This document shows, piece after piece, positions 32,658 to 50,736 of a DNA stretch of 64,000 nucleotides (position 1 is its first letter; each line of letters starts with the position of its first letter). The DNA is taken from NCBI RefSeq assembly GCF_003122215.1, contig NZ_QEYD01000004.1, forward strand, positions 186,001 to 250,000. Reading direction: 5' to 3'. The position numbers were made by a program, and so were the translations under genes. Source of the DNA: Pararhodobacter marinus. Lineage in GTDB: Bacteria; Pseudomonadota; Alphaproteobacteria; Rhodobacterales; Rhodobacteraceae. The notes below the pieces were generated by a model. It saw only the letters and a list, made by a program, of their open reading frames with translations. It was not told the origin of the DNA and did not search any database.

Positions 32658-32681
32658 TGAACAATGGGTGCAAATATGAAC
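32658..32681 (+). promoter_or_regulatory. IclR-type operator at the bicupin-Rieske unit
   Basis: In the direction of transcription this reads TGAAC-N5-GTGCA-N4-TGAAC. It has the same half-sites, spacing and orientation as the sites before the FAD monooxygenase (43184-43161) and the hydrolase (50736-50713), with one mismatch in the middle half. It covers the presumed ATG of the bicupin gene, so either repression is at the start codon or the true translation start is elsewhere. Confidence 0.65.
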
Positions 32682-33629
32682 ATTCAGAACGCAGTCTCCG
32701 ATCTTCAATCCGCGCTCGAAGCGGGCACCGGGCGTTTCGTCGACAAGACCTTCGACTGGAAGGCCTTCCCGTCGAATGTGGGCTTCCCCGAACTCGAGCG
32801 CGCGCAGATGCGCTATATCGGCGCCGGTGGCTCGCCCAAGGTCGGCGATACCACCACCATCAAGCCCGAGAACTTCACCCTGAGCCTGATCTACAAGGAG
32901 CCGGGCCGCTATGCCGCCTGCCACAGCCACGAGGTTGAAGAAAGCTTCCTGATCCTCGACGGCGCGCTGATTGTCGGCTGGGAAAAGGACGGCGAAGTGG
33001 TCGAGGTCAATCTCGGACCCAAGGACATGATCCTGAACGCCCGCGAAGTGGCGCATGGCTTCCGCGTCGACGGGGTCGAGCCGGTGATGATGTCGATCTC
33101 GGTCGATGTGGGCAAGCCGCTGCCGCCGGTCTATCGCTATCACCCCAAGGACCACCCCGCCGAACTGGCCCGGTCCTTTGGCGCCGAGCCGGGCAAGACG
33201 TTGCCCTTCGACCGCAACGGCACGCATCCGCTGCAGGAGCTGATGGCGAAATTCGTCGTCCGCCATACCGAGCTGCCGACGATCTGGGAAGACGCGGGCT
33301 TTACCCGCAAGATCTATGTCGGCGATGCGCCCAAGGCCGTGAACAACGACAGCTGCCGCAAGGAAATGTGGGGCGTGCCGTCGCGTTGCACGCTCAAGCC
33401 CTTCACCCGCAAGGTGGAAGACGCCATCCTGTGCCTTGAAGGCTCGGTCGAGGTCGTCTGGGTCGATGACAATGGCAACGAGGCGGTGATCGAGCTGGGT
33501 CCGCGCGATCTGGTCCGTACCCCGGCCGGTCAGGCGCATTACATCCGCAACAACGGCGCCGGTGCCGCCACGCTGTGGACAGTGATCGGCCAGGCCGAGA
33601 ACGACGATTTCGCCTATCAGGCCGCCTGA
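32676..33629 (+). CDS. bicupin protein (gentisate dioxygenase-like fold)
   Basis: About 317 residues with two cupin domains. Domain 1 has a complete motif 1, GRYAACHSHEVEESFLILDG (two His and a Glu as metal ligands, about residues 83, 85 and 89) and a histidine in EVAHGF. Domain 2 has lost the HxH of motif 1 (PFTRKVEDAILCLEG) but keeps PAGQAHYIRNN. A single N-terminal metal site is expected. The fold suits a ring-cleaving or hydroxyquinol/gentisate-type dioxygenase or an isomerase; function is not certain. The start is unsure: ATGs at 32664 and 32676 both lack a clear Shine-Dalgarno and lie in the operator. Confidence 0.82.
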   Translation: MNIQNAVSDLQSALEAGTGRFVDKTFDWKAFPSNVGFPELERAQMRYIGAGGSPKVGDTTTIKPENFTLSLIYKEPGRYAACHSHEVEESFLILDGALIVGWEKDGEVVEVNLGPKDMILNAREVAHGFRVDGVEPVMMSISVDVGKPLPPVYRYHPKDHPAELARSFGAEPGKTLPFDRNGTHPLQELMAKFVVRHTELPTIWEDAGFTRKIYVGDAPKAVNNDSCRKEMWGVPSRCTLKPFTRKVEDAILCLEGSVEVVWVDDNGNEAVIELGPRDLVRTPAGQAHYIRNNGAGAATLWTVIGQAENDDFAYQAA

Positions 33630-33646
33630 AGATCAAGAGGAACGCC

Positions 33647-33973
33647 ATGAGCAATGAGCAGCAGAAATCGCGCGACGCCTTCACCGATGTGATGGCCGCC
33701 GCCTTGCGTGAGCCGGGCCGTGCCGAGCTGGCGCATCAGAGCACCGGCCGCGCGCCCTCGGCCGAGGAGCATGCGCTGGCCGAGGCGATGATGGACATCT
33801 ACGGCAGCGGGGTCAGCGATCCCGCCGCCATGGCCAAGGCGCTGACCGAGCGGGGCGTGAAAGCCCCGGTTTCGGGTCGCACCGACTGGGACGCGGCGCT
33901 GTTCGAAGCCGAACTGACCGCCATCAATGAGGCCTATGACGCCGCCTATGCCGAGAACGGCATCGGCGCCTGA
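33647..33973 (+). CDS. small conserved-type protein, possibly recombinase-like HTH
   Basis: 108 residues, acidic and helical. After an unstructured-looking start (MSNEQQKSRDAF) it reads PSAEEHALAEAMMDIYGSGV and then ALTERGVKAPVSGRTDWDAA, followed by ELTAINEAYDAAYAENG. The middle stretch resembles the helix-turn-helix of serine recombinases (GV-P-GR pattern) and I recall such small proteins next to Rieske oxygenase genes. There is no catalytic recombinase domain. It may be a small accessory or regulatory protein. Good AAGAGGAA Shine-Dalgarno; it sits between the bicupin and Rieske genes. Confidence 0.7.
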   Translation: MSNEQQKSRDAFTDVMAAALREPGRAELAHQSTGRAPSAEEHALAEAMMDIYGSGVSDPAAMAKALTERGVKAPVSGRTDWDAALFEAELTAINEAYDAAYAENGIGA

Positions 33974-34011
33974 CCGACGCCGCGGATCAAGAACCGCGAG
34001 GGAGACAGAGA

Positions 34012-35046
34012 ATGCTGACTGACCCAGCCACCAAAGCAAGGATCGAAGCCCGCGTGAACGAGGGGCTTCGCGGATACTGGTACCCGGTCGCCAAATCGGT
34101 GCAGATCTCGGCCAAGCGGCCCTATGGCACCAAGGTTCTGGGCGAGAAGATCGTCCTGTGGCGCGACCGCGACGGCAAGATCCGCTGCATCGAGGATTAC
34201 TGCCCGCACCGGGGTGCGCCCCTGAGCTACGGCGAAGTGCATGACGGCAATATCGGCTGCCGCTATCACGGTGTCATCGTCGACGGGACCGGCACCGTGC
34301 AGCGCGTGCCCGCGATGCCCGATTGCGCGATGGAAGGCCGCAAGGCCCTGCGCGACTTCGTCGTGCAGGAAGCGCATGACGCGGTCTTCGTCTATATCCC
34401 CTCGGTCGACCGCCCCGAGCCGCCCGAATTGCCGCTGCCCAAGGAATTGTCCGATCCGGAATGGACCGGTTTCCTGTGCACTTCGGTCTGGGACGTGAAT
34501 TACCGCTACGCGCTCGATAACCTCGCCGACCCGATGCACGGCTGCTACCTGCATGCCGAAAGCTTCACGCTGGCCTTCGGCTCGAAACAGGATCTGCTGG
34601 AGCTCGACCGCCGCGACGACGGGTTCCGCGTCAGCCGCGTGGGTCAGACGGGCGAGAATTTCGACTGGTCGGAATTCGTCGTGGCCGAAAGCGGGATGTT
34701 CTGCTTCCTCGACATCCCCTATCCGCCGGCGGCGGGTCCGGGGGGCAACATGCGCATCCTGGGCTATGTCTGTCCGATCGACGAGACGCATTGCAAGGTG
34801 TTTTTCTGGCGGATGCGCAAGGTCACCGGCATCGAGCGTCAGAGCTGGCGTTTCCTGTACCGCACGATGCTGGAAGAGCGTCACTGGGCGGTGCTGGAAC
34901 AGGACCGCGTGATGCTCGAAGGGATGCCCGACGATGCCCGCAAGCGCGAGATGCTGTACCAGCACGATATCGGCGTGGCCCATCTGCGCCGCGCGCTGAA
35001 CAGCGCGGCCAAGGCGCAGATCGCGGCCGAGGATTCGGCAGCGTGA
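34012..35046 (+). CDS. Rieske non-heme iron oxygenase, terminal (alpha) component
   Basis: 344 residues. The Rieske [2Fe-2S] ligands are Cys64 and His66 (DYCPHRGAP) and Cys83 and His86 (IGCRYHGV). The mononuclear iron site is DNLADPMHGCYLH with His176 and His181; Asp173 is the bridging residue. Its size is close to the vanillate demethylase/phthalate dioxygenase class, which are single-type oxygenases. They hydroxylate, dihydroxylate or demethylate aromatic acids using a flavin-ferredoxin reductase; none is found in the window. It overlaps the next SDR gene by one base (TGATG), so the SDR probably acts on its product. Confidence 0.94.
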   Translation: MLTDPATKARIEARVNEGLRGYWYPVAKSVQISAKRPYGTKVLGEKIVLWRDRDGKIRCIEDYCPHRGAPLSYGEVHDGNIGCRYHGVIVDGTGTVQRVPAMPDCAMEGRKALRDFVVQEAHDAVFVYIPSVDRPEPPELPLPKELSDPEWTGFLCTSVWDVNYRYALDNLADPMHGCYLHAESFTLAFGSKQDLLELDRRDDGFRVSRVGQTGENFDWSEFVVAESGMFCFLDIPYPPAAGPGGNMRILGYVCPIDETHCKVFFWRMRKVTGIERQSWRFLYRTMLEERHWAVLEQDRVMLEGMPDDARKREMLYQHDIGVAHLRRALNSAAKAQIAAEDSAA

Positions 35047-35771
35047 TGCTGGACGGACGCCATGTCATGGTGACCGGCGCCGCGCGCGGATTGGGCGCGG
35101 TGCTGGCCCGCGCGGTGGTCGAGGCGGGGGCCCGCCTGACCATCGCCGATCTCGCCGAGGAAGAGGGCCGCACGCTGGCGACCGAGCTGGGCGCGGGTTT
35201 CGTTCGTGTCGATCTGGGCGAGCCCGAGAGCATCAAGGCGGCCGTCGCCTCGCTGGACGGCCCGCTTGACGGGCTGGTCAATAACGGCGCCATTGCCACC
35301 GGGATCGGCGGGATCGGGTTCGAGGATATCGAGCTTGAGACCTGGGACCGGGTGATGCGCGTCAACGTGCGCGGCACCTGGCTGATGATCCGCGCCTGCG
35401 CGCCGCTCTTGCGGCAATCGGGCAGCGGGCGGGTGGTCAACGTGGCCTCGGATACCGCGCTGTGGGGCGCGCCGAACCTGTTGAGCTATACGGCCTCGAA
35501 AGGCGCGGTCATGTCGATGACGCGGTCGCTGTCGCGCGAGCTGGGGCCCGACCGGATCGGCATCGCCGCTGTGGCGCCGGGCATCCTGACCACGCCCTCG
35601 ACCGATTACGTCCCCGAGGCGCGCCACAAGCTGTACGAGGACGGCCGCGCCGTGCCCGGTCCGCAGCCGCCCGAGGATATCGCGCCCACCGTGGTCTTCC
35701 TGCTGTCCGAAGGCGCTTTGACGCTGACCGGGCAGGTACTGCCGGTCAACCGGGGCTTCGTGTTCACATGA
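35046..35771 (+). CDS. SDR-family dehydrogenase following the Rieske oxygenase
   Basis: 241 residues, classical SDR: TGAARGLGAVLARAV cofactor loop, NNGA, catalytic Ser in NVASDTALWG, and SYTASKGAV as YxxxK. C-terminal GQVLPVNRGFVFT is family-like. Genes directly coupled to Rieske oxygenases often encode cis-dihydrodiol dehydrogenases, which re-aromatise the diol to a catechol; that is a plausible but unproven role. Start and stop overlap with both neighbours (TGATG and ATGA). Confidence 0.88.
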   Translation: MLDGRHVMVTGAARGLGAVLARAVVEAGARLTIADLAEEEGRTLATELGAGFVRVDLGEPESIKAAVASLDGPLDGLVNNGAIATGIGGIGFEDIELETWDRVMRVNVRGTWLMIRACAPLLRQSGSGRVVNVASDTALWGAPNLLSYTASKGAVMSMTRSLSRELGPDRIGIAAVAPGILTTPSTDYVPEARHKLYEDGRAVPGPQPPEDIAPTVVFLLSEGALTLTGQVLPVNRGFVFT

Positions 35772-36289
35772 CGCCCGATGCGCTGACCGACAGCCTGACC
35801 CGGCCCTGGGCGCATGGCGAGCATGCCGAGCTTGCGGGCGCGTCCTTCGACGCGCCCGTGGTACTGGACGACAAGGTTCTGCGCAGTTTCGATCTGACGG
35901 GCGCGCGTTTCGGCGCGGGCCTGTCGGCGCAGCGCGCGGTGTTTCGCGGCATGGCCTGGCTGCACCGGGCCGAGGTGACGGGTAAGGTCGATCTGTCGGA
36001 CGCCGTGTTCCGCAGCGATCTGCGCATGGACGGGCTGGTCTGCGACACGCTGATCCTGTCGGGCGCGGAATTTCAGGGCGTGCTGACGCTCGACCGGGCG
36101 CGGATTGGCACGCTGATCGCGCGCGACTGCATCTGTCTGGCGAACCTGTCGCTGGCGGGCGCGCGGATCACCGGTCATGCCGATTTCTCGGGCTCGGAAG
36201 TGCTGGGCGGCGCCTGGGCCGACGGGGCCGAGCTGCACGCGCTCGAGCAGGTCGGCATGGTTGTCGACGGCCGCCGCACAGGGCTCTGA
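35768..36289 (+). CDS. pentapeptide-repeat-like protein
   Basis: 173 residues with repeating A(D/N)LxX-type units: DLTGARFGAGLSAQRAVFRG, then KVDLSDAVFRSDLRMDG, LILSGAEFQGVLTLDRARIG and NLSLAGARITGHADFSGSEV. The pattern suggests a right-handed quadrilateral beta-helix. Function in a catabolic operon is unknown; such proteins may be scaffolds. Its ATG overlaps the SDR stop (ATGA). It is the last gene of the plus-strand unit and faces an FAD monooxygenase gene with only 22 bp between stops and no clear terminator. Confidence 0.75.
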   Translation: MTPDALTDSLTRPWAHGEHAELAGASFDAPVVLDDKVLRSFDLTGARFGAGLSAQRAVFRGMAWLHRAEVTGKVDLSDAVFRSDLRMDGLVCDTLILSGAEFQGVLTLDRARIGTLIARDCICLANLSLAGARITGHADFSGSEVLGGAWADGAELHALEQVGMVVDGRRTGL

Positions 36290-36311: not shown

Positions 36312-37490
36312 TTACGCCAGCGCGGCGATTTTCGCGTCCGCTTCGGCGTTCATCGCCCGAAGCCTGGCGTAGAATCCATCGACCGCGTCCTGCGCCGTTG
36401 CACGCAATTGTTCATGGCGTTGGGGCAGGCTGGCAAGGTCTTCGTCTGCCCCCGCCTCGCCCACCGCGCGCGACACATCCTGTACGAACTGGCAGACCGG
36501 CAGGCGCAGCGTGCCGAAGGTCGCAAGCGCCGTTTCCAGATCGTCCCCGGCGCCCAGGATCCGCGCCAGCACCAGCGCGTCCTGCATCGCCATCGCGCCG
36601 CCCTGTCCCATGAACGGGGTTGAGGCATGGGCCGCGTCGCCGATCAGCAGCACGCGGTCGCGGTGCCAGGGCAGGGGCATGACCACCTCGTCCACGGCGG
36701 TGAACAGGATCTCGCTGTCGTCGTTCAGCTCCGACAGGAAGGGCGCGGCGGGGCCATCGAATTCGGCCAGCGCCGCGCGCATCGCGCCGGGCCAGTCGGT
36801 CGGGTCGATATGGCGCCCCTTGGGATGCGCGACGGTGCCGAAGGTATAGAGCCGGTCGTCGCTGATCGGCATGATGCCGAAGCGCTTGGCGGGGCCCATC
36901 ATCATGATCTTCTGCGTCAGATCGGCAGGCCGTTCATGGACCGAGCGCCAGATGCCGAAGCCGGTATAACGCGGCTCGACCCCCGGCGCGAGCTGTGCGC
37001 GGGTCCATGACCGCACGCCATCGGCGCCAAGGATCAGATCGGCGCGCAATTCCGTACCATCCGCCAGTGTCATGCCGCCTGCCGGGTCCAGCGCCGTGAC
37101 CTCGGCCCCCAGCGTGACCTGCACCCCCAGCGCATCCATGCGCTGCGACAGCACGCGGTGCAGCTCGGCCCGCTTGATGCCCAGGATCGCGGGCACGCGG
37201 CCGTTGCGGGCCGTGGGGTAATGGGTGGTGGTCAGCGGCGTGCCGTGATGGTCGAAATAGGCATTCTCGCCCCCGTCGACGGCAAAGCCGGTGGCGAGGA
37301 TGTCATCGAGCAGGCCTAGATCGTCCAGCGTTTCCAGCCCGTTCGAGTAGACAAAAATGCCCGAGGACTGGAACCGCCATTCGGTCTGCTTTTCCAGAAC
37401 CCGCACGCGGTGACCCGCCTGCGTCAGCGCGATGGCCGCCGAACAGCCGGCGATCCCCGCGCCGATGATGATGATATCCAGTCCGGTCAT
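36312..37490 (-). CDS. FAD-dependent aromatic monooxygenase (group A) 1
   Basis: 392 residues of the p-hydroxybenzoate hydroxylase type. GxGxxG motif IIGAGIAGCSAAIALTQAGH at residues about 8-27, DG motif LILGADGVRSW, and GD motif LLIGDAAHASTPFMGQGGAM. It hydroxylates an aromatic acid or phenol with NAD(P)H and oxygen; 3-hydroxybenzoate 6-hydroxylase and salicylate hydroxylase are relatives. It is the last gene of the minus-strand unit that runs from 43132, 10 bp after the sulfatase gene. Confidence 0.92.
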   Translation of the reverse strand: MTGLDIIIIGAGIAGCSAAIALTQAGHRVRVLEKQTEWRFQSSGIFVYSNGLETLDDLGLLDDILATGFAVDGGENAYFDHHGTPLTTTHYPTARNGRVPAILGIKRAELHRVLSQRMDALGVQVTLGAEVTALDPAGGMTLADGTELRADLILGADGVRSWTRAQLAPGVEPRYTGFGIWRSVHERPADLTQKIMMMGPAKRFGIMPISDDRLYTFGTVAHPKGRHIDPTDWPGAMRAALAEFDGPAAPFLSELNDDSEILFTAVDEVVMPLPWHRDRVLLIGDAAHASTPFMGQGGAMAMQDALVLARILGAGDDLETALATFGTLRLPVCQFVQDVSRAVGEAGADEDLASLPQRHEQLRATAQDAVDGFYARLRAMNAEADAKIAALA

Positions 37491-37500
37491 GGCGCCCTCC

Positions 37501-39117
37501 TCAGGCTTGGTGGGTGGCGAGCACGGCTTTGTCCCTGAGCGCGATCTGCCGTTGGATCAGCATCAGCAGCATTTCGGCCCGCTTCGATTGCGCGGCGGGT
37601 TCGGCCCACAGGTTTACCAGCTCGTCGGGATCGGTGTTCAGGTCGTAAAGCTCGCCCAGATCCGACCCTTCGAACACGCTGAGCCGCCAGCCCCCGAACA
37701 CCACCGAGCGGATCGAACTGTCGGCATCCGGATCGCCATAGACACCCATGCCGGGATCCTCGATCAGGACGGGCAGGTCGGGCGCGTCGTCGGCCAACAG
37801 GTCGTGGCCCTGCATCCCCACCGGGATCTTCAGCCCGGCGCGCTGCAGCACCGTGGGCGCGAAGTCGATGGCGCTGCCATGCAGGCGGCTGACATGGCCC
37901 TGCGCGCCCTGCGGATCGGCCCACAGGAAGGGGACATTGATCACGCCGCGTGTATGCAGCCCGTGTTTCAGCATCGTGCCATGATCGCCCATGTAATCGC
38001 CATGGTCGGACATGAAGCACAGCACCGTGTCGCCCGCGCGTCCCACAGCATCGAGCGCGGCCAGGACCTGTCCGATCCTGTCGTCGATCATGGTGATCGC
38101 GCCGTAATTCAGGGCAATCATGCGGCGGGTGGTGTCGGCATCGGCGTGGAACGGCCAATAGGCATCGCGGTCGGCATCCCCGCGCGCATAGCCCTGAAGC
38201 AGGCTGTCGGGCAGATCCCCGCGCGCGCCGGTCGGGTGCGTGAAACTGGCGGGCAGGGCGATGGCGTCGGGGTCATAGAGATCGAAATAGCGTCCCGGCG
38301 GCGTGAACGGGTGGTGCGGATCGGGGAACGAGACGATTAGGAAGAAGGGGCGCGGGTCGGTCTCTTGGAGAAAAGTGCAGGCTTCCTCGGCAATATAGGC
38401 GGTGGGATACAGATCCTCGGGCAAAGCGGTGCGCCAGATCTGCGGCGCCTCGCCCTTGTCGTCGGGCAGCGCCTGCGCCCGTCCGCGCGGATCGGGGGCG
38501 CCGTTCAGCCGCTCTTGCAACCAGCCGGAATAATGCCCCTCGACCTGATCGCCATGGCCGATGCACAGGCGGACATGCTCGAACCCGTAATAGGGCAGGG
38601 GGATCTGGCGGCCCGGGTCGCGCGCCCAGGCCATGCGGGTTTCGGCGCCGTAATCGGGGCCGGTGCGCTGGTCGCGGCGGGCCGTCTCATAGGGGGGCAC
38701 CGGATCATTGCCCCGGCCGCGCAGGGCGCGCGGGCTGGCGGGAACGGGCGAGACGTTCTGGAAATGCGCCTTGCCCACCAGCCCGGTGCGATAGCCGGCC
38801 GCGCGCAGCACGTCCGCGACGGTGGTGCTGTCGAGCGAGACGGGGATCCCGTTCTGACGACAGCCATTGACCGAGGGCATCTGCCCGGTGATCAGCGAGG
38901 CCCGGTTGGGCTGGCAGATGGGCGTGGCGGTGAAGACATTCTCGAACCGCACGCCGCGTTGAGCGATGCCGTCGATATGCGGCGTGCGGACGACGGGGTT
39001 GCCGTAGCAGCCCAGATGATCCGCGCGCTGCTGATCGGTCATGAAGACGATGAAGCTGGGGCGCGTCGCGGTTGCGGCGCGCCCCGTTTCGTTGCGGTTC
39101 GGTTCCGGCCCCGTCAT
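37501..39117 (-). CDS. sulfatase (formylglycine type)
   Basis: 538 residues of the arylsulfatase/alkaline-phosphatase superfamily. The catalytic cysteine is Cys68 in the CxPxR motif (TPICQPNRASLITGQ), which must be converted to formylglycine. N-terminal metal site PSFIVFMTDQQRADHLGCYG and the later FLIVSFPDPHHPFTPP and MSDHGDYMGDHGTMLKHG are typical. No signal peptide is visible, so it works in the cytoplasm on an imported sulfate ester. No formylglycine-generating enzyme gene is in the window. Its ATG overlaps the dctM stop (ATGA), tying it to the TRAP importer. Confidence 0.93.
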   Translation of the reverse strand: MTGPEPNRNETGRAATATRPSFIVFMTDQQRADHLGCYGNPVVRTPHIDGIAQRGVRFENVFTATPICQPNRASLITGQMPSVNGCRQNGIPVSLDSTTVADVLRAAGYRTGLVGKAHFQNVSPVPASPRALRGRGNDPVPPYETARRDQRTGPDYGAETRMAWARDPGRQIPLPYYGFEHVRLCIGHGDQVEGHYSGWLQERLNGAPDPRGRAQALPDDKGEAPQIWRTALPEDLYPTAYIAEEACTFLQETDPRPFFLIVSFPDPHHPFTPPGRYFDLYDPDAIALPASFTHPTGARGDLPDSLLQGYARGDADRDAYWPFHADADTTRRMIALNYGAITMIDDRIGQVLAALDAVGRAGDTVLCFMSDHGDYMGDHGTMLKHGLHTRGVINVPFLWADPQGAQGHVSRLHGSAIDFAPTVLQRAGLKIPVGMQGHDLLADDAPDLPVLIEDPGMGVYGDPDADSSIRSVVFGGWRLSVFEGSDLGELYDLNTDPDELVNLWAEPAAQSKRAEMLLMLIQRQIALRDKAVLATHQA

Positions 39118-40433
39118 CGCATCATGTAGGCGACCGGCGCGGTCACCAGAGCGGGGAAGAAGAACAGGATCAGGATCGCCACAAGGTCACAAATGATGAA
39201 GGGCATTGCGGCCTTGTAGATGTCGTTCATCGACGTGCCCTTGGGTGCCACCGCCTTCATCACGAAAAGCGCGGCCCCCAGCGGCGGCGAGGTCGAGCCG
39301 GTCTCGATCGCCACCAGATACATCGCCGCGAACCAGATCGGGTCGAAGCCGAACTGGATGACGATCGGCACGAAGATCGGCAGGGTGATCAGCATGATGG
39401 GCAGGGGACCCATGAACATGCCCAGGAAGATCACCGCGCCGATCATCGCCAGCACGATGATCGAGGGGCTGGCATCGAGCGAGGTGATCGCATCGACCAT
39501 GCCGTAAGTGGCGCCGGTATAGGCGAGGATCTGCGTGAAGGCGGTCGCGCCCGAGACGATCAGCAGCACCATCACCGAGATATTCGCGCTGTTGAAGATC
39601 GAGGTCGAGAAGACCTTCCAGCTTAGCCGCCGCTTGATCGCGGCCAGCGCCAGCGTTGCGAAGGCCCCGGTCGCGGCGGCTTCGGACGGCGTGGCGAGGC
39701 CGAGGAAGATCACCCCCACCACCGAGAAGACGACGATGGTCAGCGGCAGGATATGCACCGCCGTGGCGTGCAGCTTGTCCTTCATCGGCACCGGCGGCAC
39801 GTCGAAACTGGGCGCCAGATCGGGCTGCAGCGTGCAGCGCACGAGGATATAGACCGCGTAGAGCACGGCCATCAGCAGGCCCGGCACGATGATCCCGATC
39901 AGGATGCGGCCGATCGACAGCTCGGACACCACGCCCAGCACGACCGCCAGCGACGAGGGCGGGATCATGATCGCCAGCCCGGCCGAGCCCAGAATCGGGC
40001 CCAGCGACATCGGCTTCTTGTAGCCGCGCTTTTCCATCTCGGGGACCAGCGTCGAGCCCAGAAGCGCGATCGACCCCATCGAGTTGCCCGTCAGCGTCGA
40101 GAACATCACGCCGCCGCCCACGGCCATGAAGGCCAGCCGTCCGCGCAGCTTGCCGATCCACTTGTCCAGCGTGTCCATCAGGTCGATGGCGATGCGCGAC
40201 TGGAACATGGCTTCGCCCATGATCATGAACAGCGCGATGGGAACCAGCGTGAAGCTGGCCAGCGAATCGACGGTGTTCAGCACCAGCTGCTCGACCCCCG
40301 ACATGCCCCCCATCAGCATGTAGCCGCCGACGAGGTTCACCACCAGAAAGGCAAAGGCCACGGGCAGTCCCGTCACCATCAAGAGCAGAAGCGGGGCGAC
40401 GATGACCAGAACGACGATGTACCATTCCATCAT
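39114..40433 (-). CDS. TRAP transporter large permease (DctM family)
   Basis: 439 residues, multi-spanning. Starts MMEWYIVVLVIVAPLLLLMV; shows VAFAFLVVNLVGGYMLMGG, GSIALLGSTLVPEMEKRGYK and IMIPPSSLAVVLGVVSELS, all DctM marks. It is the ion-coupled channel. Its ATG overlaps the dctQ stop (ATGA) and its stop overlaps the sulfatase start, so three genes are translationally coupled. Confidence 0.93.
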   Translation of the reverse strand: MMEWYIVVLVIVAPLLLLMVTGLPVAFAFLVVNLVGGYMLMGGMSGVEQLVLNTVDSLASFTLVPIALFMIMGEAMFQSRIAIDLMDTLDKWIGKLRGRLAFMAVGGGVMFSTLTGNSMGSIALLGSTLVPEMEKRGYKKPMSLGPILGSAGLAIMIPPSSLAVVLGVVSELSIGRILIGIIVPGLLMAVLYAVYILVRCTLQPDLAPSFDVPPVPMKDKLHATAVHILPLTIVVFSVVGVIFLGLATPSEAAATGAFATLALAAIKRRLSWKVFSTSIFNSANISVMVLLIVSGATAFTQILAYTGATYGMVDAITSLDASPSIIVLAMIGAVIFLGMFMGPLPIMLITLPIFVPIVIQFGFDPIWFAAMYLVAIETGSTSPPLGAALFVMKAVAPKGTSMNDIYKAAMPFIICDLVAILILFFFPALVTAPVAYMMR

Positions 40434-40930: not shown

Positions 40931-40948
40931 AGCCCGTCCCCTTGTTTG

Positions 40949-40977: not shown

Positions 40978-40998
40978 CTGAATGTCAGTCCTGGCCGG

Positions 40999-43184: not shown

Positions 43185-43288
43185 AACAGGCTAGACCGCT
43201 TCCAGAAACCAGTCAAGGAATTTAGCGGGGCTTTGTCCGGGCGGGCCATCGTGACGCCGGGACCTGCCGTCCGCAGGCACAAGGCGCT

Positions 43289-43317
43289 GTTCAAATACGC
43301 TTCAAGTGTTCTATAAT
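43289..43317 (+). promoter_or_regulatory. promoter and degenerate operator of the iclR gene
   Basis: A perfect -10 hexamer TATAAT (43312-43317) lies 16 bp after TTCAAA (43290-43295). Overlapping it are GTTCA (43289-43293) and GTTCT (43308-43312) at the same 19-bp spacing as in the other sites; the middle half-site is lost, and TGAGC follows at N4. The overlap suggests autorepression. Confidence 0.6.
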
Positions 43318-43342
43318 GAGCGAAAATTCGAGGGAGTGACGC

Positions 43343-44146
43343 ATGGACGGCGATGGCAAACCCAAGGCGGCGGAGTATTCCGTTCCGCCGGTCGAGCGGG
43401 CGCTGAAGCTTCTGCGTCACATTGGCGACGGTAACACCTGCCGCAATCTGAGCGCCACGTCCGAAGCGCTGGGAATCAACCGTACCACGCTGATTCGCCT
43501 TATTCACACGCTCAGCACGAACCGCATGATCGAGGAAATCGCCAACGGCGCGGGCTATCGGCTGGGCGTCGGGCTGATCACGCTGGGATCGCAGGCGATG
43601 CACGGGCGCGATCTGGTGCAGGTCTGCCAGCCGGTTCTGGCCGAGCTTTGCGCCGAAACGGGTATGTCCGCGCATATGGGCATCCTTGACGGGCCCGACA
43701 TCGTCTATCTCAGCCGCGAGACACCCAACACGCACCTGGTCAGCAACGTGCGCGCCGGGTCGCGGCTGGCCGCCCATGCTTCGTCCATCGGACGCGCGAT
43801 CCTGGCCGAGCTGAGCGAGGACCAGATCACCGCGCTTTTCGCGGATGCGCCGCTGCCCGCGAATACGTCGAAGACCCCCGTCACCCTGTCCGAGGTCCTG
43901 GAACAGGCGCGCGCCGACAGGGCGGCGGGCGTGGCGTGGAGCGAGGGGAATTTCGAAGCCGGTATCGGCTCTTGCGCGGCGGCGATCTTCGATCATCAGC
44001 GCACGCCGGTGGGGGCGCTGAACGTCTCGGGCCCGCAATCGGCGTTCTCGGCGGAAGCGGCCGAGGGTACGGACCGGATCCGGAAAGCGGTCAAGGGCGC
44101 GGCTTTCCGGGCGTCGCAGGCGCTGGGCTACATGCCCCGCGCCTGA
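43343..44146 (+). CDS. IclR-family regulator, likely master of the catabolic regulon
   Basis: 267 residues. HTH: PPVERALKLLRHIGDGNTCR and SEALGINRTTLIRLIHTLST. Effector domain: GMSAHMGILDGPDIVYLSRE, SRLAAHASSIGRAILAELSE and GIGSCAAAIFDHQRTPVGAL. Such proteins activate or repress aromatic-catabolic operons on binding a pathway intermediate. It sits between the two minus-strand catabolic units, is divergent from the monooxygenase unit, and its own promoter carries a weaker copy of the shared operator. GAGGGAG Shine-Dalgarno. The other IclR (31844) is the alternative master. Confidence 0.9.
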   Translation: MDGDGKPKAAEYSVPPVERALKLLRHIGDGNTCRNLSATSEALGINRTTLIRLIHTLSTNRMIEEIANGAGYRLGVGLITLGSQAMHGRDLVQVCQPVLAELCAETGMSAHMGILDGPDIVYLSRETPNTHLVSNVRAGSRLAAHASSIGRAILAELSEDQITALFADAPLPANTSKTPVTLSEVLEQARADRAAGVAWSEGNFEAGIGSCAAAIFDHQRTPVGALNVSGPQSAFSAEAAEGTDRIRKAVKGAAFRASQALGYMPRA

Positions 44147-44168
44147 CGCTTTCGCCACGGGCAGGGTT

Positions 44169-45641
44169 TCACGGCCAGCGCGCCCACGGGTGCGGGCGGC
44201 CGGACATATCCTCGTAGATCGACTTCTGCGACTGGTAGGCGCGCAGCCCCGCGCGGCCCTTTTCGCGCCCGATGCCGCTGGCCCCGTCGCCGCCGAACGG
44301 CGTCGAGATCGAGAATTGCTTGTAGGTATTGATCCAGACCGTCCCCGCCTTGATCGCCCGCGCGATGCGCTGACATTTGACGTGGTCGCGGCTCCAGATC
44401 CCGCAGGCGAGGCCGTATTCGTTGTCGTTGCCCGTGGCGATCACGTCGGCCTCGTCGTCAAACGGCATCACCACCAGAACCGGGCCGAACACCTCTTCGC
44501 GGCAGATCCGGTCGGTATTGGCGACATCGGCGATGATCGTGGGTTCGTAGAAGGCACCCACGTCCAGCCCTTCGGGCCGTTTGCCGCCGCACAGGACCCG
44601 CCCGCCGTCTTCCAGCGCCATGGCGACATAGCCCTCGACCGAGGCGCGGTGATCGGCATGGACCAGCGACGAGACCTGCGTGTCCACGTCGAAGGGATGG
44701 CCGACCTTCAGCGCCTTGGTCGCGGTGACCAGACGGTCGACGAAACGGGCGTAAATCGAGCGCTGCACGAACAGGCGCGAGCCGGCGATGCAGCTTTGCC
44801 CGCTCGATGAGAAGATGCCGAACAGGATGCCGGCGATGGCCAGATCCTCGTCGCAATCCTCGAACACGATGGTGGGGGATTTCCCGCCCAGTTCCAGCGA
44901 AACGGGCATCAGCTTGTCGGCGGCGATGCGCGCCAGATGCTTGCCGGTCGAGGTGCCGCCGGTGAAGGACACCTTGGCGATGTCCGGATGCTCGACCAGC
45001 AGGTTGCCGACCTCGCGCCCGGATCCGGGCAGGACCGAGAACAGGCCCTTGGGCAGCCCCGCCTCGTCGATGATCCGCGCGAGTTCAAGGCAGACCAGCG
45101 GCGACCAGCTTGCGGGCTTCAGCAGCACCGCGTTCCCGGCGGCCAGGGCGGGCGCGACCTTTTGCGCGTCGGATGCGATGGGCGAATTCCACGGCGTGAT
45201 CGCGGCGACGACGCCCAGGGGTTCATGCACCGATAGCGTGGTGTAATCTCCGCGCGGCACGGTCAGCAGCTCGTCCGAGGTTTCCAGAACGGCGGCGAAA
45301 TAGCGGAAGGTCGCGGCAGCCGAGGCCGCCAGCGCGCGCGTCTCGGCCAGCGTTTTCGACGTGTCGCGGCTTTGCACCCAGGAAATGCGGTCGATATCGG
45401 CGCTGATCCCTTCCGAGATACGGTAGAGATAGCTTGCACGCTCATGCGGTTTCAGCGCGCCCCAGGCGGGTTGGGCGGCCTTTGCCGCGGCAATGGCCTC
45501 GTCGACATCCTCGCGCGAGGCGCCGTTGAAGGTCTGGTTCTCGGTTCCTTCGGCGGCGAAGATCGAGGTGATCGGCGCGCCTTTGCCCGCGCGCCACTGG
45601 CCGCCGATCAGCAGATGGCCGTTCGAGAAATCGTGACTCAT
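44169..45641 (-). CDS. NAD(P)-dependent aldehyde dehydrogenase
   Basis: 490 residues, normal for the family. Cofactor segment AITPWNSPIASDAQKVAPAL, FTGGTSTGKHLARIA, catalytic glutamate in LELGGKSPTIVF, catalytic cysteine in SSSGQSCIAGSRLF, and the EEVFGPVLVVMPFDDE motif. It oxidises an aldehyde to an acid. It is the last gene of the hydrolase-to-ALDH operon, 9 bp after the aspartate-dehydrogenase-like gene. The ThDP enzyme of the operon may make its aldehyde. Confidence 0.94.
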   Translation of the reverse strand: MSHDFSNGHLLIGGQWRAGKGAPITSIFAAEGTENQTFNGASREDVDEAIAAAKAAQPAWGALKPHERASYLYRISEGISADIDRISWVQSRDTSKTLAETRALAASAAATFRYFAAVLETSDELLTVPRGDYTTLSVHEPLGVVAAITPWNSPIASDAQKVAPALAAGNAVLLKPASWSPLVCLELARIIDEAGLPKGLFSVLPGSGREVGNLLVEHPDIAKVSFTGGTSTGKHLARIAADKLMPVSLELGGKSPTIVFEDCDEDLAIAGILFGIFSSSGQSCIAGSRLFVQRSIYARFVDRLVTATKALKVGHPFDVDTQVSSLVHADHRASVEGYVAMALEDGGRVLCGGKRPEGLDVGAFYEPTIIADVANTDRICREEVFGPVLVVMPFDDEADVIATGNDNEYGLACGIWSRDHVKCQRIARAIKAGTVWINTYKQFSISTPFGGDGASGIGREKGRAGLRAYQSQKSIYEDMSGRPHPWARWP

Positions 45642-45650
45642 GCTCTGTCC

Positions 45651-46472
45651 TCAGATGACGATGCCGGCCGAGCGGTTCAGCACCGCGCGCGCGACGCTGT
45701 AGGCGGTCGAGGCCGAGGTTTTCGGATTGCGCGGCGAAGCTTTGGCAGTCAGCGTGACCGCGAAATCCACCGCCTGCGACTGCACGCTGAATTCATGCGT
45801 GTTGGTATCGACGCCGGGATCGGCGACCAGCCGAACGCGGGTCTCGTCCATGCCCAGACCGGCGATTGCCAGCGTGGCGGCGACATTGGCGTTCTTGGGG
45901 TATTGCGTCGCCGCCTCGCGCGCCGAGCCTTCGAAGAACACCGTGGCTTCGGTCAGCGCGGGCAGATCGACGGCCTGTTCGGCGGGCGTGCCGCTCCAGG
46001 CGCGGGGCGGTTTGCGGCCAGTATACGTGACGCCGGTCAGGCCCGACAAGCGGGCGGCCGCCAGCATGTCGATGCCGCCGATGGCGCCCGCAGGCAGCAC
46101 GAGCTGGGCCGAGCCGCCCTCGGCGGCGGCTTTCAGCGCGGCCTCGGTCTGCGGGTCGGCCAGCGCGCCGATCGACGCGACAACAATGTCGATCTGCGCG
46201 CGCAGGATGGCGGGGCCGAACTGGGCCACGGCGGTATGGCTGGCGCATTCGGCGATCACGTCGGGCCGGGCAGCGAACAGGCCCGTCGTGTCGGACACGA
46301 CATGGACCGCGCAACGCCCGGCGACCTGCTCTTGCGCCGCAGCCAGCGTTTCGCCCGTCTTCTCGGGACGCACCATGATGACCAGTGCCTCGGGCGGCGG
46401 GTCCTGCGCGCAGAGGATGTCGATCAGGTCGCGCGCGATCGAGCCGAAGCCGATGATTCCGATCGTCGTCAC
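45651..46472 (-). CDS. L-aspartate dehydrogenase-like protein (DUF108 family)
   Basis: 273 residues. Rossmann start TIGIIGFGSIARDLIDIL, then VIAECASHTAVAQFGPAIL, a central LPAGAIGGIDMLAAARLSGL, and the family block PKNANVAATLAIAGLGMDET. Known members interconvert L-aspartate and oxaloacetate (via iminoaspartate) with NAD(P)+, but family members in catabolic clusters may act on other amino acids. The start is a GTG overlapping the ThDP gene stop (GTGA). Beside a 2-oxo-acid-decarboxylase-like enzyme and an aldehyde dehydrogenase, a deamination of an amino acid to a 2-oxo acid is a natural guess. Confidence 0.9.
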   Translation of the reverse strand: MTTIGIIGFGSIARDLIDILCAQDPPPEALVIMVRPEKTGETLAAAQEQVAGRCAVHVVSDTTGLFAARPDVIAECASHTAVAQFGPAILRAQIDIVVASIGALADPQTEAALKAAAEGGSAQLVLPAGAIGGIDMLAAARLSGLTGVTYTGRKPPRAWSGTPAEQAVDLPALTEATVFFEGSAREAATQYPKNANVAATLAIAGLGMDETRVRLVADPGVDTNTHEFSVQSQAVDFAVTLTAKASPRNPKTSASTAYSVARAVLNRSAGIVI

Positions 46473-48121
46473 GACTTGCCCCCGGCGGCCCCGGCGGGCG
46501 GGCCGGCAAAGGCCACCGCGTAAGGGCCGATGGCCGTCATGTCGACCTCGACCACATGCGGGCCCTTGCGCGTCATGCTCTCGTTGAAGACCGCCTCGAA
46601 CGCGGTGATGTCGTCAACCTTGGTATGGGGCAGGTCGATGGCATCGCACAGCTTGGCGAAATTCGGCGTCTTCAGTTTCGAGTAATGCCGCCGCCCGTCA
46701 TACTGGGCATCCTGGATGTTCTCGATCACGCCGTAAGCCTGATCGTTCATCAGCAGGAACGTCATGTCGAGATCTTCGTCCACCGCGGTGATCAGCTCGG
46801 CCAGGCCCAGCATCGTGCCCCCGTCGCCCAGAAGCGTGACGGTGCGCGCATCGGGCGAGGCGACGGCAGCGCCGATGCCCATCGCCACGCCCTGACCGAT
46901 GCCGCCCCCCAGCGCGTGCACGCCAAGATTGGGCGCACCGATCTGGACGTAACGGTTGCCGAAGGTCGAGTTCGAGATCGTCACGTCGCGCACCCAGGGA
47001 TGCTTGCCCGCCGGGATCACGCTCATCAGGTGATCGGCGATGACCTGATACGGTCCCAGCCGCTCGCGCAGGACGCCCTCGGCCTTGGCGCGGGCGACGG
47101 CGATGTCATAGGCCTGCTGCGGGTCCACATCCAGTTTCGCGGGCAGCCGGTCCAGAAGCCCGCGCAGGGTCTTGGCCGCATCGCCGCACAGGAACAGGTC
47201 GACCGGGTAGTTGCGGCCGTATTGCGTGGCGTCGGCGTCGATCTGAACCAGCGGACGGGGCAGCGCCATCTTGTTGTTGAGCGTCTCGTTCCCCCGCAGA
47301 CGCGAGCCCACGACGATCATCAGGTCGGATTGCGCGTAGATTGCCTGCGCCTCGGGCGTCATGTTGAACGCGCCCAACGTGGCGGGGTTCTCCTCGGGCA
47401 CCACGGCGCGGCCCTGGGTCGAGGTGACGGCGCCGAAACCGCGCGCGACCAGCTCGGTCGCTTCGGCCTGCGCGCCGCGCGCGCCGCCTCCCAGCCAGAT
47501 CATCGGGCGTTTGGCCTGTTTCACCATCTCGGCCAGCGCATCGAGGCGCGTCTCGTCATTGCCGGGAAGCGCGACGACGGGGGCCACCGCCGGGTGGCCG
47601 TCCATCGCGTCAAGCCGCTGCACATCGACCGGGATCTCAAGGCTGACGGGGCCGGTGGGGGGCGTCAGGGCCGCGCGCACGGCGGCTTCAAGCGTGCCGG
47701 TGGCGGATTTCTCGTCCCAGATGCGGAACACGGCCTTGGACACGCCGCGCAGCATTTCGGGCTGTTTGGGCACGTCGTGGATGGCGGCGCGGTCGCGATC
47801 CATGAATTCGCGGTCGATCTGGGTGGTGATGTGCAGCACACGGCTGCCGGCGGTCAGGGCCTCGGCCTGCGCGCCGGCGGCGTTGCCCGCTGCAGTCCCG
47901 GTCGAGGTGATGACCACGCCCAGCTCGCCCGTGACGCGCGAATAGGCGTCGGCCATGCCCATCGCCCCGGCCTCGCCCCGCGCAGGGACGAATCGGATGC
48001 GGTCCTGCGTGGCGATGCCGTCGAGGATCGGCATGTTGTGGATCGAGATCACCCCGAACACCGTTTTCACCCCGATATCGGCAAGCGCGCGGGCGATCTG
48101 ATAACCGACTGTTTCCGTCAT
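46469..48121 (-). CDS. thiamine-diphosphate-dependent enzyme (2-oxo acid decarboxylase/ALS-like)
   Basis: 550 residues. PYR domain start TVGYQIARALADIGVKTVFG with the catalytic glutamate in PARGEAGAMGMADAYSR; middle domain KRPMIWLGGGARG; PP domain with LLGDGGTMLGLAELITAVDE and LLMNDQAYGVIE, the ThDP-Mg motif. It is not closely similar to the one at 16360. It could decarboxylate an aryl or other 2-oxo acid to an aldehyde. AAGGAAG Shine-Dalgarno; 21 bp after the SDR gene. Confidence 0.9.
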   Translation of the reverse strand: MTETVGYQIARALADIGVKTVFGVISIHNMPILDGIATQDRIRFVPARGEAGAMGMADAYSRVTGELGVVITSTGTAAGNAAGAQAEALTAGSRVLHITTQIDREFMDRDRAAIHDVPKQPEMLRGVSKAVFRIWDEKSATGTLEAAVRAALTPPTGPVSLEIPVDVQRLDAMDGHPAVAPVVALPGNDETRLDALAEMVKQAKRPMIWLGGGARGAQAEATELVARGFGAVTSTQGRAVVPEENPATLGAFNMTPEAQAIYAQSDLMIVVGSRLRGNETLNNKMALPRPLVQIDADATQYGRNYPVDLFLCGDAAKTLRGLLDRLPAKLDVDPQQAYDIAVARAKAEGVLRERLGPYQVIADHLMSVIPAGKHPWVRDVTISNSTFGNRYVQIGAPNLGVHALGGGIGQGVAMGIGAAVASPDARTVTLLGDGGTMLGLAELITAVDEDLDMTFLLMNDQAYGVIENIQDAQYDGRRHYSKLKTPNFAKLCDAIDLPHTKVDDITAFEAVFNESMTRKGPHVVEVDMTAIGPYAVAFAGPPAGAAGGKS

Positions 48122-48142
48122 GAGCGGATCTTCCTTGAGAGG

Positions 48143-48934
48143 TCAGGCGAAGCGCGAAACGCCGCCCGAGATTTCCAGCTGTGCCCCGGTGATGTAACTG
48201 GCGGCAGGAGAGGCGAGGAAAGTCAGCGCGCGGGCCGCTTCCTGCGGGTCGCCCAGACGTCCGAGGGGGATCTTCTTCTTGGCGGCGAGCTGCCCGTACC
48301 ACTCGGCGCGCGACTGGCTCTGATCCTCGCGCGCGTCGAAGCGGCGCTGCCATTGCTGGCTGTCGACCAGACCCAGCAGGATCGAGTTGACGCGCACCTT
48401 GGGGGCCAGCTCGACCGACAGGGATTTCAGCAGGTTCTGCACGCCGCTGCGCGCAGCCGAGGTGCAGACCATATGCGGCTCGGGCTGATAGGCCAGCAGC
48501 GAATTGACCGCCACGATGGCGCCCGCGTCCGAGGCTTTGAGCATCGGCAGGCAGGCATGGATCGGGTTGAGCTGGCTGAAGAATTTCAGCTCAAGCTCGT
48601 CGCGCCAATCCTGCTCGGACGTGTCGGCGAAGGTCGACACCCGGCCCTGACCGGCATTGGTGATGAGCACGTCGCAGCCGCCGAAACGGTCGTTCACCTC
48701 GGCGGCGAAGGCCTCGACCTCGGCCCGGTCGAGCACCGAGAACGCCTTGGCAAGGACCCGGTCTTCCCCGAACTCGCCAGCGAAATCTGCGCGGACCTTT
48801 TCCAGCCGCTCGGCGCCCCGGGCGCAGATGGCGACGTTTGCGCCTTCTTCCAGCAGGCAGCGCGCGGTAGCCAGACCGATGCCCGACGACCCGCCGGTGA
48901 CGATGGCCGTCTTGTAGTTCAGTTGCAGATCCAT
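48143..48934 (-). CDS. SDR-fold protein with degenerate catalytic motif
   Basis: 263 residues. Cofactor loop TGGSSGIGLATARCL, NAGQG and a serine at about 145 (VNSLLAY) are normal. At the place of YxxxK the protein reads CTSAARSG: Tyr is replaced by Cys157 and Lys by Ala161. C-terminal LEISGGVSRFA is family-like. It may be a non-classical reductase, a lyase-like or a binding protein. Related SDRs with TSAARAG in this place exist to my memory, so it may be a subfamily. Start at 48934 follows GGAG. Confidence 0.85.
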   Translation of the reverse strand: MDLQLNYKTAIVTGGSSGIGLATARCLLEEGANVAICARGAERLEKVRADFAGEFGEDRVLAKAFSVLDRAEVEAFAAEVNDRFGGCDVLITNAGQGRVSTFADTSEQDWRDELELKFFSQLNPIHACLPMLKASDAGAIVAVNSLLAYQPEPHMVCTSAARSGVQNLLKSLSVELAPKVRVNSILLGLVDSQQWQRRFDAREDQSQSRAEWYGQLAAKKKIPLGRLGDPQEAARALTFLASPAASYITGAQLEISGGVSRFA

Positions 48935-48938
48935 GCCG

Positions 48939-49847
48939 TCACTCCGGTTTGGGGAAGCCAAAATCCGGCCGTCCGGCCATCACGGTGCGTTGCGCGGGCG
49001 TGGGCGGGCCGGCGGTCATCCACTGGTCCATCGCCTCGGGGTCCGAGCGCGACCAGACGCGCGCCTCGTGCGTGTCCTCGTCGATCAGCTCGACATCGGC
49101 GGTGAACTCGATGACGAAGCCCGAGGGCGAGACGAAATAGGCGAACGGGTTGTCGCCCGGCCCGTGACGGCCCGGCCCCCAGCTGGGAACCTGTCCGTTC
49201 TGCTTCATCCGGCCGATCGCGCGCATGAAGCTGTTGATGCCGGGCACTTCGAAGGCAACGTGGTTGATCGACGGATACTGCGCCCGCACCAGCGCCACGG
49301 CGTGATGGGTTTCGTTGCAGCGCATGAAGGTCATCTGATCGGCGGAATAGTCGCTGGTGCGGAAGCCCAGCACGCGCGCATACCACGCCTCGGAGCCTTC
49401 GAGATCGGGCGTGTTGAACACCAGATGCGAGATCTTGTGCGGATAGGCGTGTTTCTGGGACGCCTCGCGCATCTGCAGATCGGTGGTGAAGCGCAGGCGG
49501 CGGTTGTCGGGGTCCAGCATTTCGAACCCGTAGCCGCCGATCTTGTCGTTGAAGAGCGCGGGCGCGCCCAGCACGGTCCCGCCCTCGGCCACGACCTGCG
49601 CATAGAGCGCGATCATATCGTCGCGGTTTTCCATGCCGAAATGGGCGTATTCGATGCCATAGGTGTCGCCGTCCTTCAGCCCGTAGAGAAAGGGCTCGGC
49701 GCTGGTGCCGTGCAGATAGACGATGCCCTCGTCGCTGGCGGCTTCGTGCAGGCCCCATTGCTCGGTATAGAAGGCCTTGGTCGCGGTCATGCCGGGCGCG
49801 CGCATGACGATACCGCGCAGATGTCCGACGCTGATCTTGTCAGCCAT
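48939..49847 (-). CDS. extradiol-type ring-cleavage dioxygenase (VOC family, type I)
   Basis: 302 residues with two VOC modules. The C-terminal module holds the probable iron ligands: a histidine in KISHLVFNTPDL, one in SINHVAFEVPG and a glutamate in GFVIEFTADVE (2-His-1-Glu). It resembles catechol 2,3-dioxygenases, which open a catechol next to the diol. WGPGRHGPGDNPFAYFVSPS is a known extradiol loop. GGAGGA Shine-Dalgarno. It overlaps the hydrolase gene by 8 bp, the usual dioxygenase-hydrolase partnership of meta-cleavage pathways. Confidence 0.88.
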   Translation of the reverse strand: MADKISVGHLRGIVMRAPGMTATKAFYTEQWGLHEAASDEGIVYLHGTSAEPFLYGLKDGDTYGIEYAHFGMENRDDMIALYAQVVAEGGTVLGAPALFNDKIGGYGFEMLDPDNRRLRFTTDLQMREASQKHAYPHKISHLVFNTPDLEGSEAWYARVLGFRTSDYSADQMTFMRCNETHHAVALVRAQYPSINHVAFEVPGINSFMRAIGRMKQNGQVPSWGPGRHGPGDNPFAYFVSPSGFVIEFTADVELIDEDTHEARVWSRSDPEAMDQWMTAGPPTPAQRTVMAGRPDFGFPKPE

Positions 49848-50688
49848 GATGTCCTCCGGTCGGGCTGGGCATGCGCGCATCCGCATGCGGGGGGATGAGC
49901 TGCAAAAGCGCCTGAACGAAGTCCTGCGGCTTTTGCAGATAGACGGCGTGGCCGGCCCCGGCGATGTCGATGCGGCGCGGGGTCTGGCCGGTCGTGGCAA
50001 GCGCGCGCATCGCGCGCTCGGTCTGGTCGGGGGGCGTGACGATGTCCCCGGCCCCCAGAATGAAATCGCAAGGTACCGTCACGCCGCGCAGATTGGCCTC
50101 CAGATCGCCACCCGCCAGCATCCGCACCGCCTGCGCGTAGCCTTCGGGATCGACCTGCGCCATGCCCGCCTCGACGCGGGCGACAAGCGCGGGATTGGCC
50201 TCGGGATCGAAGATGAGGCGCGGCGCGCGGGTGCGGGCGAATTCTGCCGGTCCCAGCGCGCGCAGGTCGGTGATCCGCGCGGCCACCTTGGGCGGCAGGT
50301 CGTCGCCGGGCGCGACGGCATAGCCACAGGCACTGGCGGCAAGGATCAGCTGCCCGACCCGGTCGGGATAGGCGCGGGCAAAGGCACTGCCCATCAGCGT
50401 GCCCAGCGAATGGCCGACGATGATCACCCGGTCACAATCCAGCGCATCGAGAAACCGCGCCAAGGCATCGGCATAATCGCGGTCGGTCGGCCAGTCGACG
50501 GCCAGCCGCTCAGAGCCGCCATAACCGGGCGCATTCCACGCGATCAGGCGGGGGCCTTCGGGAATGAGCGGCATGAGGTCGCCAAAGGAGGCGGCGTTCG
50601 AACCGATGCCATGCAGGAACACGATGGCAGGATCGCGGCCATCGCGGCCGATCCACTCGATCCCTGCCTTGCGTCCCTGCCGTTCCAT
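49840..50688 (-). CDS. alpha/beta hydrolase (possible meta-cleavage product hydrolase)
   Basis: 282 residues, alpha/beta-hydrolase fold. VFLHGIGSNAASFGDLMPLI (oxyanion HG), nucleophile serine in VIIVGHSLGTLMGSAFA, acid in LGAGDIVTPPDQ and catalytic histidine in GAGHAVYLQKPQDF. It would hydrolyse the C-C bond of a ring-fission product or an ester. The ATG at 50688 is preferred; a TTG at 50718 lies within the operator. It heads the six-gene minus-strand operon. Confidence 0.9.
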   Translation of the reverse strand: MERQGRKAGIEWIGRDGRDPAIVFLHGIGSNAASFGDLMPLIPEGPRLIAWNAPGYGGSERLAVDWPTDRDYADALARFLDALDCDRVIIVGHSLGTLMGSAFARAYPDRVGQLILAASACGYAVAPGDDLPPKVAARITDLRALGPAEFARTRAPRLIFDPEANPALVARVEAGMAQVDPEGYAQAVRMLAGGDLEANLRGVTVPCDFILGAGDIVTPPDQTERAMRALATTGQTPRRIDIAGAGHAVYLQKPQDFVQALLQLIPPHADARMPSPTGGHHG

Positions 50689-50712
50689 CGCGCTACCCGT
50701 TCGCTCCGTCGC

Positions 50713-50736
50713 GTTCAAATATGAACAACTCGTTCA
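50713..50736 (-). promoter_or_regulatory. IclR-type operator of the hydrolase-to-aldehyde dehydrogenase operon
   Basis: On the plus strand GTTCA-N4-TGAAC-N5-GTTCA: a perfect palindrome GTTCA-AATA-TGAAC and a third half-site as direct repeat. On the minus strand it overlaps a plausible -10 (CATATT) with TTAGCA 17 bp upstream. Best copy of the shared motif. Confidence 0.75.

Follow-up and report, generated by a model that had tools for sequence, protein, structure and literature searches.

Operators built of three boxes have been described for the IclR-family regulators PcaU and PobR of Acinetobacter baylyi and HmgR of Pseudomonas putida, and the excerpts of PMC8222616 used here predict such sites for 32 orthologous groups of the family. 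The third box is reported there to be necessary for PcaU binding, and the question is posed whether three-box sites mean alternative dimerisation (excerpts of PMC8222616). Here we describe an element of this kind, operator 2, with the pattern GTTCA-N4-TGAAC-N5-GTTCA, which is located upstream of three catabolic units (17 genes) in a 64,000-nucleotide stretch of Pararhodobacter marinus DNA, hereafter the window (bases 186001-250000 of a 415 kb contig; genome 4.49 Mb). Most likely, judging from sequence, one IclR-family regulator controls a whole aromatic-degradation pathway via operator 2; the reading that the operator is owned by IclR2, encoded at 43343, which would repress units A, B and C as one aromatic regulon, is given a probability of roughly 0.7. 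The sites and the two candidate regulators are as follows:

50713..50736, minus strand: operator 2 of unit C, exact, found ahead of the orthologous unit in relatives too.
43161..43184, minus strand: operator 2 of unit B, differing by one letter in box 1 (GTTCT), kept upstream of a flavin adenine dinucleotide (FAD) monooxygenase gene.
32658..32681, plus strand: putative operator 2 of unit A, one mismatch, last box overlapping the likely cupin start ATG 32676.
43289..43321, plus strand: putative autoregulatory site of iclR2, reversed, outer boxes GTTCA and GTTCT, middle box degenerate.
43343..44146, plus strand: iclR2, IclR-family regulator (Pfam HTH_IclR and IclR_C), proposed owner of operator 2.
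31844..32590, minus strand: iclR1, IclR-family regulator (Pfam), proposed owner of operator 1.

Read in the direction of the gene, operator 2 of unit C is TGAAC-N5-GTTCA-N4-TGAAC. All four sites had been proposed in a first-pass annotation of the window, and all were recovered at its coordinates with the half-sites it described: at 32658-32681, with the pattern read on the minus strand, the lone mismatch is the middle box (TGCAC), and at the fourth site (43289-43312) the outer boxes are 19 bp apart and four of the five middle-box letters differ. The array has a common orientation relative to transcription in the three structural units, as had been noted, and the element before iclR2 faces the opposite way. 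The open reading frame (ORF) layout, in which the units, as predicted transcripts, comprise 5, 6 and 6 genes plus iclR2, fits the postulated regulon of at least 14 genes.

A scan of the window allowing up to three mismatches gave five matches against 0.42 expected, a number reached by none of 100 shuffles. Of the five, 50722 is the 50713 site in a shifted register and 41637 an intragenic match with three mismatches, and neither counts as an additional site. When base 5 could also be T and one mismatch was tolerated, the window gave three matches and 60 simulated windows gave none. The pattern GTTC-N5-TGAAC-N5-GTTCA has two exact matches in the whole genome, both inside the window, and four more with one mismatch, namely the 32658 site and three on contigs C7, C22 and C30; at up to two mismatches, 37 matches compare with 9 for the backward pattern. 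A two-box palindrome without the third box (G000:C5:60884) lies ahead of a short ORF with no evident relation.

In order to compare relatives, the vicinal oxygen chelate (VOC) dioxygenase of unit C was used as the reference. An ortholog was present at E 1e-60 in 15 of 295 genomes of the family, giving 14 regions outside the window's own genome, and a scan of public genomes with the 15-sequence dioxygenase alignment yielded at least 80 loci, on 52 of which the window genes and the motif were mapped. Operator 2 is found in 46 of these 52 proteobacterial-type loci at up to two mismatches (44 at up to one, 24 exact), and the backward pattern in none. An excess of the motif before orthologous clusters was what the first-pass annotation had expected of a genuine operator, and the motif survived this check. 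The closest relative among the loci listed, Rhodobacter sp. NTK016B (L038; dioxygenase 98%), shares the unit B and C sites, and another locus of the same relative (L148) has the unit A site too.

Exact GTTCW-N4-TGAAC-N5-GTTCA was also searched in 41 of the 52 genomes in full, mostly those with long records. Of the 34 matches, spread over 23 genomes, 32 fell within cluster loci and the other 2 no more than 0.5 kb away; none of the 41 genomes had a backward match. The 295 family genomes held 13 exact matches in 10 genomes, of which 10 were in the cluster or beside iclR2 (G000, G079, G142, G162, G174, G235 and G250) and 3 off-cluster (G007, G172 and G187); because the backward control also gave 3, the off-cluster matches are at chance level. 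The G172 match falls inside an ORF that to us reads like an ATP synthase delta chain. Four plasmid loci found later, from Vibrio nigripulchritudo, Pseudosulfitobacter, Paracoccus and Nitratireductor, each have at least one exact site. Nitratireductor shows a further exact operator just past iclR1 (L056:960-983 and L200:2004-2027), and the L200 copy faces an ATP-binding cassette (ABC) transporter operon, which is likely an extra member of the regulon.

The third box was assessed on 77 non-redundant two-box palindromes (GTTCW-N4-TGAAC) chosen regardless of it. An exact third box stands at the canonical place in 63, with every other offset occurring at most once, and by our reading of the output 13 of the remaining 14 have a third box with one mismatch; the third box and the palindrome are conserved to the same degree. 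The information table is biased at the searched positions and was used only for those outside the pattern, where conservation extends to an A after the first and the last TGAAC (0.74 and 0.73, respectively) and to a run of T/A preceding the first box. The palindrome together with a third box 19 bp from the like-oriented one would suggest that IclR2 occupies the site as more than a single dimer, probably as a tetramer. A chance resemblance, or a part of the core promoter, could be argued from the fourth site, which by itself is not significant against shuffles (p 0.085), but genome-wide specificity, the backward controls and the fixed offset of the third box make such an explanation almost negligible.

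The position of the operator relative to predicted promoters bears on how it may act:

50740..50768, minus strand: predicted promoter of unit C, TTGACA 50763-50768, 17 nt, TAGCAT 50740-50745.
43188..43216, minus strand: predicted promoter of unit B, TTGACT 43211-43216, 17 nt, TAGCCT 43188-43193.

In both units the predicted promoter, TTGAC(A/T) and TAGC(A/C)T with 17 bases between them, leaves 3 nt to the first TGAAC. Among 102 non-redundant sites, 73 have their best-scoring -10 finishing 3-8 nt ahead of the operator; shuffled upstream sequences gave a mean of 14.5 (largest 24), and shuffling the A/T-rich final 12 bases separately, which keeps the base gradient, gave one of 29.8 (largest 39). 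More than half of the sites (53/102) lie between divergent cluster genes, and 33 of those with a cluster gene on one side only point toward it. Since the operator thus covers the predicted transcription start just after the -10, a repressor is the best reading. PcaU and PobR are activators, and it is conceivable that IclR2 owns operator 2 but likewise activates, or both activates and represses. The three-box layout common to PcaU, PobR and HmgR in the excerpts favours this (PMC8222616), but a protein bound just downstream of the predicted -10, where most sites lie, would block polymerase rather than recruit it, and we regard activation as rather improbable.

The first-pass annotation had left the operator to either IclR protein. 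Both belong to the family, with 28.1 (HTH_IclR) and 107.4 bits (IclR_C) for the 43343 protein and 49.9 and 74.9 bits for the 31844 protein against Pfam cut-offs of 22 and 24, and both score below the cut-offs of the PcaR/PcaU/PobR subfamily TIGR02431 (284.75 bits; 126.4 for 43343 and 155.8 for 31844) and of BhcR, NF045644 (350 bits; 126.9 and 74.5). The iclR1 start at GTG 32590 is suggested by the relatives L149 and L150, and the listed ORF begins at 32629. IclR2 relatives (E 1e-45) occur in 41/41 cluster genomes and IclR1 (E 1e-40) in 10 of 21 that we chose from these, which points to the 43343 IclR, not the 31844 IclR, as partner of operator 2. Some of the 11 genomes without IclR1 are incomplete metagenome-assembled genomes; 8 of the 11 keep exact operator 2 sites, and the isolates Limimaricola cinnabarinus (G296) and Pararhodobacter oceanensis (G297) lack IclR1 and have two exact sites each. 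Among the 295 family genomes the dioxygenase is found in 15, IclR2 (E 1e-68) in 15 and both in 14, the exceptions G119 and G142 being 78% and 84% complete. A midpoint-rooted tree of 88 IclR sequences separates 33 IclR1-like from 55 IclR2-like proteins (support 1.0 and 0.82), and the recognition helices differ between the clades in the rows printed. With two clades, two operator types and a presence/absence pattern that ties operator 2 to 43343, ownership by either protein is not upheld, and IclR2 rather than IclR1 is its predicted partner.

It could still be held that IclR1 binds the GTTCA operator, alone or with IclR2, as it adjoins the 32658 site and is present in the cluster of many relatives. 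Apart from its absence from more than half of the genomes compared and its distinct clade and recognition helix, this is opposed by the iclR1-cupin gap, which holds a different conserved motif, and such binding appears very unlikely. That motif is a separate three-box IclR-type site (GTTTY...AAAAC...RAAAC), overlooked by the first-pass annotation:

32593..32627, plus strand: operator 1, presumed IclR1 site, GTTTC-N6-AAAAC-N14-GAAAC, three boxes.

The iclR1-cupin gap of relatives contains a common three-box element, in its commonest form GTTTTRTCCATAAAAC-N14-RAAAC, which likewise has a 19 bp repeat. A search of 42 genomes for GTTT-N7-RAAAC-N14-RAAAC gave 29 exact matches, in 23 of the genomes (backward control 6); by coordinates, 18 of the matches lie in the iclR1-cupin gap and 11 elsewhere. 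The 32593-32627 element is best read as the predicted operator of IclR1. Genes for TctA, TctC and a BMP-type binding protein adjoin iclR1 (28293-31836), and neither operator was found ahead of them at the stringency scanned; tctC-like genes also occur near the Roseomonas clusters.

The 32658 site requires separate consideration. The cupin starts of relatives align with ATG 32676, so the last box doubles as the start-codon region. The site might therefore be no operator, its last box being the coding start ATGAAC and the rest coincidence, with unit A under IclR1 only: the cupin gene starts with ATGAA(C/T) in many relatives, and the site is absent at up to three mismatches from L149 and L150, where the gene order iclR1-cupin-HTH_62-Rieske is conserved. 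However, the other two boxes match 9/10 letters with the right spacing and polarity, and relatives with a separate HTH_62 unit have operator 2 ahead of that unit. Coincidence is for us a doubtful account, and the 32658 site is probably a functional operator. Among the sites proposed for the three units it is the weakest. Since operator 1 is also at the cupin promoter, which IclR1 would control through it, unit A in the present genome may respond to IclR1 as well as to IclR2. Only tentatively can this be extended to a scheme in which two IclR paralogs govern one aromatic regulon, each with its own three-box operator (10 bp interior, 19 bp repeat): the IclR1-type promoter of the cupin/HTH_62/second Rieske unit would have gained an IclR2 operator ending in the start codon, forming a two-input gate, and IclR2 would limit itself via the reversed site with the weak middle box.

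That reversed element, GTTCAAAT-N11-GTTCT, is found 29-30 bp upstream of iclR2 in the window and in L038, L040, L041 and L042, with the middle box broken each time. Of 51 loci, 13 have outer boxes intact (0 and up to 1 mismatch) toward iclR2, and in all 13 the middle box has 1-4 mismatches; the remaining 38 have no such intact outer-box element toward iclR2. In the window the site overlaps a predicted promoter (TTCAAA, 16 nt, TATAAT 43312-43317), and the preferred reading is a weak, reversed, putative autoregulatory site of iclR2.

In the mechanism proposed here, IclR2 would bind GTTCA-N4-TGAAC-N5-GTTCA a few bases past the -10, covering the transcription start and most likely repressing units A, B and C until an inducer, possibly the substrate or an early intermediate, releases it; through the weakened, inverted copy overlapping the iclR2 promoter, IclR2 would also keep its own expression in check. 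Units A, B and C would together make up a single pathway for aromatic degradation, served by a dedicated uptake system. Several observations weigh against this proposal. Operator 2 is missing from 6 of the 52 loci, all six being contigs of 5.3-11.7 kb; 18 of the 41 cluster genomes have sites with 1-2 mismatches and no exact one, and within the family an exact site is present in only 6 of the 15 genomes carrying the dioxygenase. Six one-sided sites face away from the cluster gene, 10/102 sites have no gene of the window set nearby, the promoters are matches to consensus, and the 32658 site, as stated, is lacking in two relatives of the same gene order. Of the other 28 loci listed (38-42% identity, mostly Actinobacteria and Bacillales) only one has the motif (backward control 0), which indicates that the pathway does not need operator 2. 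The one match (L091:19568-19591, one mismatch) is in a Nocardioides locus that also carries IclR2-like and FAD monooxygenase genes.

The genes of the three units encode short-chain dehydrogenases/reductases (SDR), a thiamine diphosphate (ThDP) enzyme and a tripartite ATP-independent periplasmic (TRAP) transporter, among others:

32676..36289, plus strand: unit A, cupin start placed by alignment with relatives.
From 32676, plus strand: two-domain cupin, unit A.
33644-33973, plus strand: HTH_62 protein, unit A.
34012-35046, plus strand: Rieske oxygenase, unit A.
35043-35771, plus strand: SDR, unit A.
35768-36289, plus strand: pentapeptide-repeat protein, unit A.
36312..43132, minus strand: unit B, six genes.
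42008-43132, minus strand: FAD monooxygenase, unit B.
40999-41982, minus strand: TRAP DctP, unit B.
40430-40930, minus strand: DctQ, unit B.
39114-40466, minus strand: DctM, unit B.
37501-39117, minus strand: sulfatase, unit B.
36312-37490, minus strand: second FAD monooxygenase, unit B.
44169..50688, minus strand: unit C, six genes.
49840-50688, minus strand: alpha/beta hydrolase, unit C.
48954-49847, minus strand: VOC extradiol-type dioxygenase, unit C.
48143-48952, minus strand: SDR, unit C.
46469-48121, minus strand: ThDP enzyme, unit C.
45651-46472, minus strand: aspartate-dehydrogenase-like protein, unit C.
44169-45641, minus strand: aldehyde dehydrogenase, unit C.

Extradiol dioxygenases of type I (VOC fold) combine the glyoxalase/dioxygenase fold with a His-His-Glu metal triad. 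The VOC protein matches Pfam Glyoxalase (1.2e-16), and its H141, H196 and E247, which we take to be the metal ligands, are invariant in 15 sequences, as expected of this class; the activity is predicted. A search of solved structures paired the Rieske protein, across the Rieske region, with oxygenases of the phthalate, carbazole and dicamba types; for the cupin it returned only designed proteins over about 40 residues, which we judged not meaningful. That the units serve one pathway, as had been suggested, is supported by 29 distant loci, 21 of which keep relatives of the unit C dioxygenase, SDR and ThDP enzyme together with the unit A Rieske protein, and 9 of which have the unit B FAD monooxygenase. 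We infer a meta-cleavage pathway for an aromatic compound. The sulfatase inside unit B, which also follows the TRAP genes in the SUP05/Thioglobus loci L075, L078 and L107, hints at a sulfate ester, perhaps the form in which some members meet the aromatic substrate. Many relatives have, after the HTH_62 gene, an NMT1-type ABC transporter (L056:4602-7302; L198:5716-8331) in place of the window's TRAP transporter, so the uptake systems seem interchangeable within one regulon. The Nitratireductor cluster has an extra NMT1-type ABC transporter, an FAD-type reductase and a flavodoxin. The HTH_62 ("recombinase-like helix-turn-helix") protein, of 109 residues, accompanies Rieske genes across orders together with the pentapeptide-repeat protein. 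Riboflavin/lumichrome degradation, which according to the excerpts of PMC12752717 uses a P450, a molybdoprotein and a heterodimeric ThDP enzyme, was rejected as the pathway, none of these three being among the gene products scanned, and for homarine a literature search gave nothing on the subject.

The operator is thus sharply defined and unique in its genome, on an uncharacterised pathway present in Rhodobacterales, Nitratireductor, Roseomonas, SUP05/Thioglobus and a Vibrio plasmid. The regulon boundary names candidate genes and shows TRAP or NMT1-type ABC transporters filling the same place across species. Because the cluster combines two IclR paralogs whose codes can be told apart, the alternative-dimerisation question, as posed in the excerpts of PMC8222616, becomes directly testable.

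A literature search for the gene set or operator layout returned nothing on this cluster among the matches listed. Like the PcaU, PobR and HmgR sites in the excerpted text, operator 2 consists of a palindrome plus an outer direct repeat with alternating box direction, the third box being exact in 63/77 cases, and the 32 predicted groups likewise have three alternating boxes, with aromatic and DctPQM genes among the regulated functions (PMC8222616). The IphR operator of Comamonas sp. E6 is also a palindrome with an extra downstream half-site; compared on the site only, it differs in box sequence and in its shorter spacing (excerpts of PMC8222616). Palindrome interiors are 11 or 12 bp in the four subgroups printed there, PcaU having the consensus TGT-11-ACA, in contrast to 10 bp in operators 1 and 2 (TGT-10-ACA in operator 2; PMC8222616). 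The resemblance to PcaU and PobR noted in the first-pass annotation therefore stands for the layout, whereas operator 2 differs in having a palindrome shorter by 1 bp and in its predicted location across the transcription start, which suggests repression, unlike those activators. Relative to the systems in the excerpts of PMC8222616, operator 2 is a further member of the three-box IclR sites, with a differing 10 bp interior, on an uncharacterised pathway.

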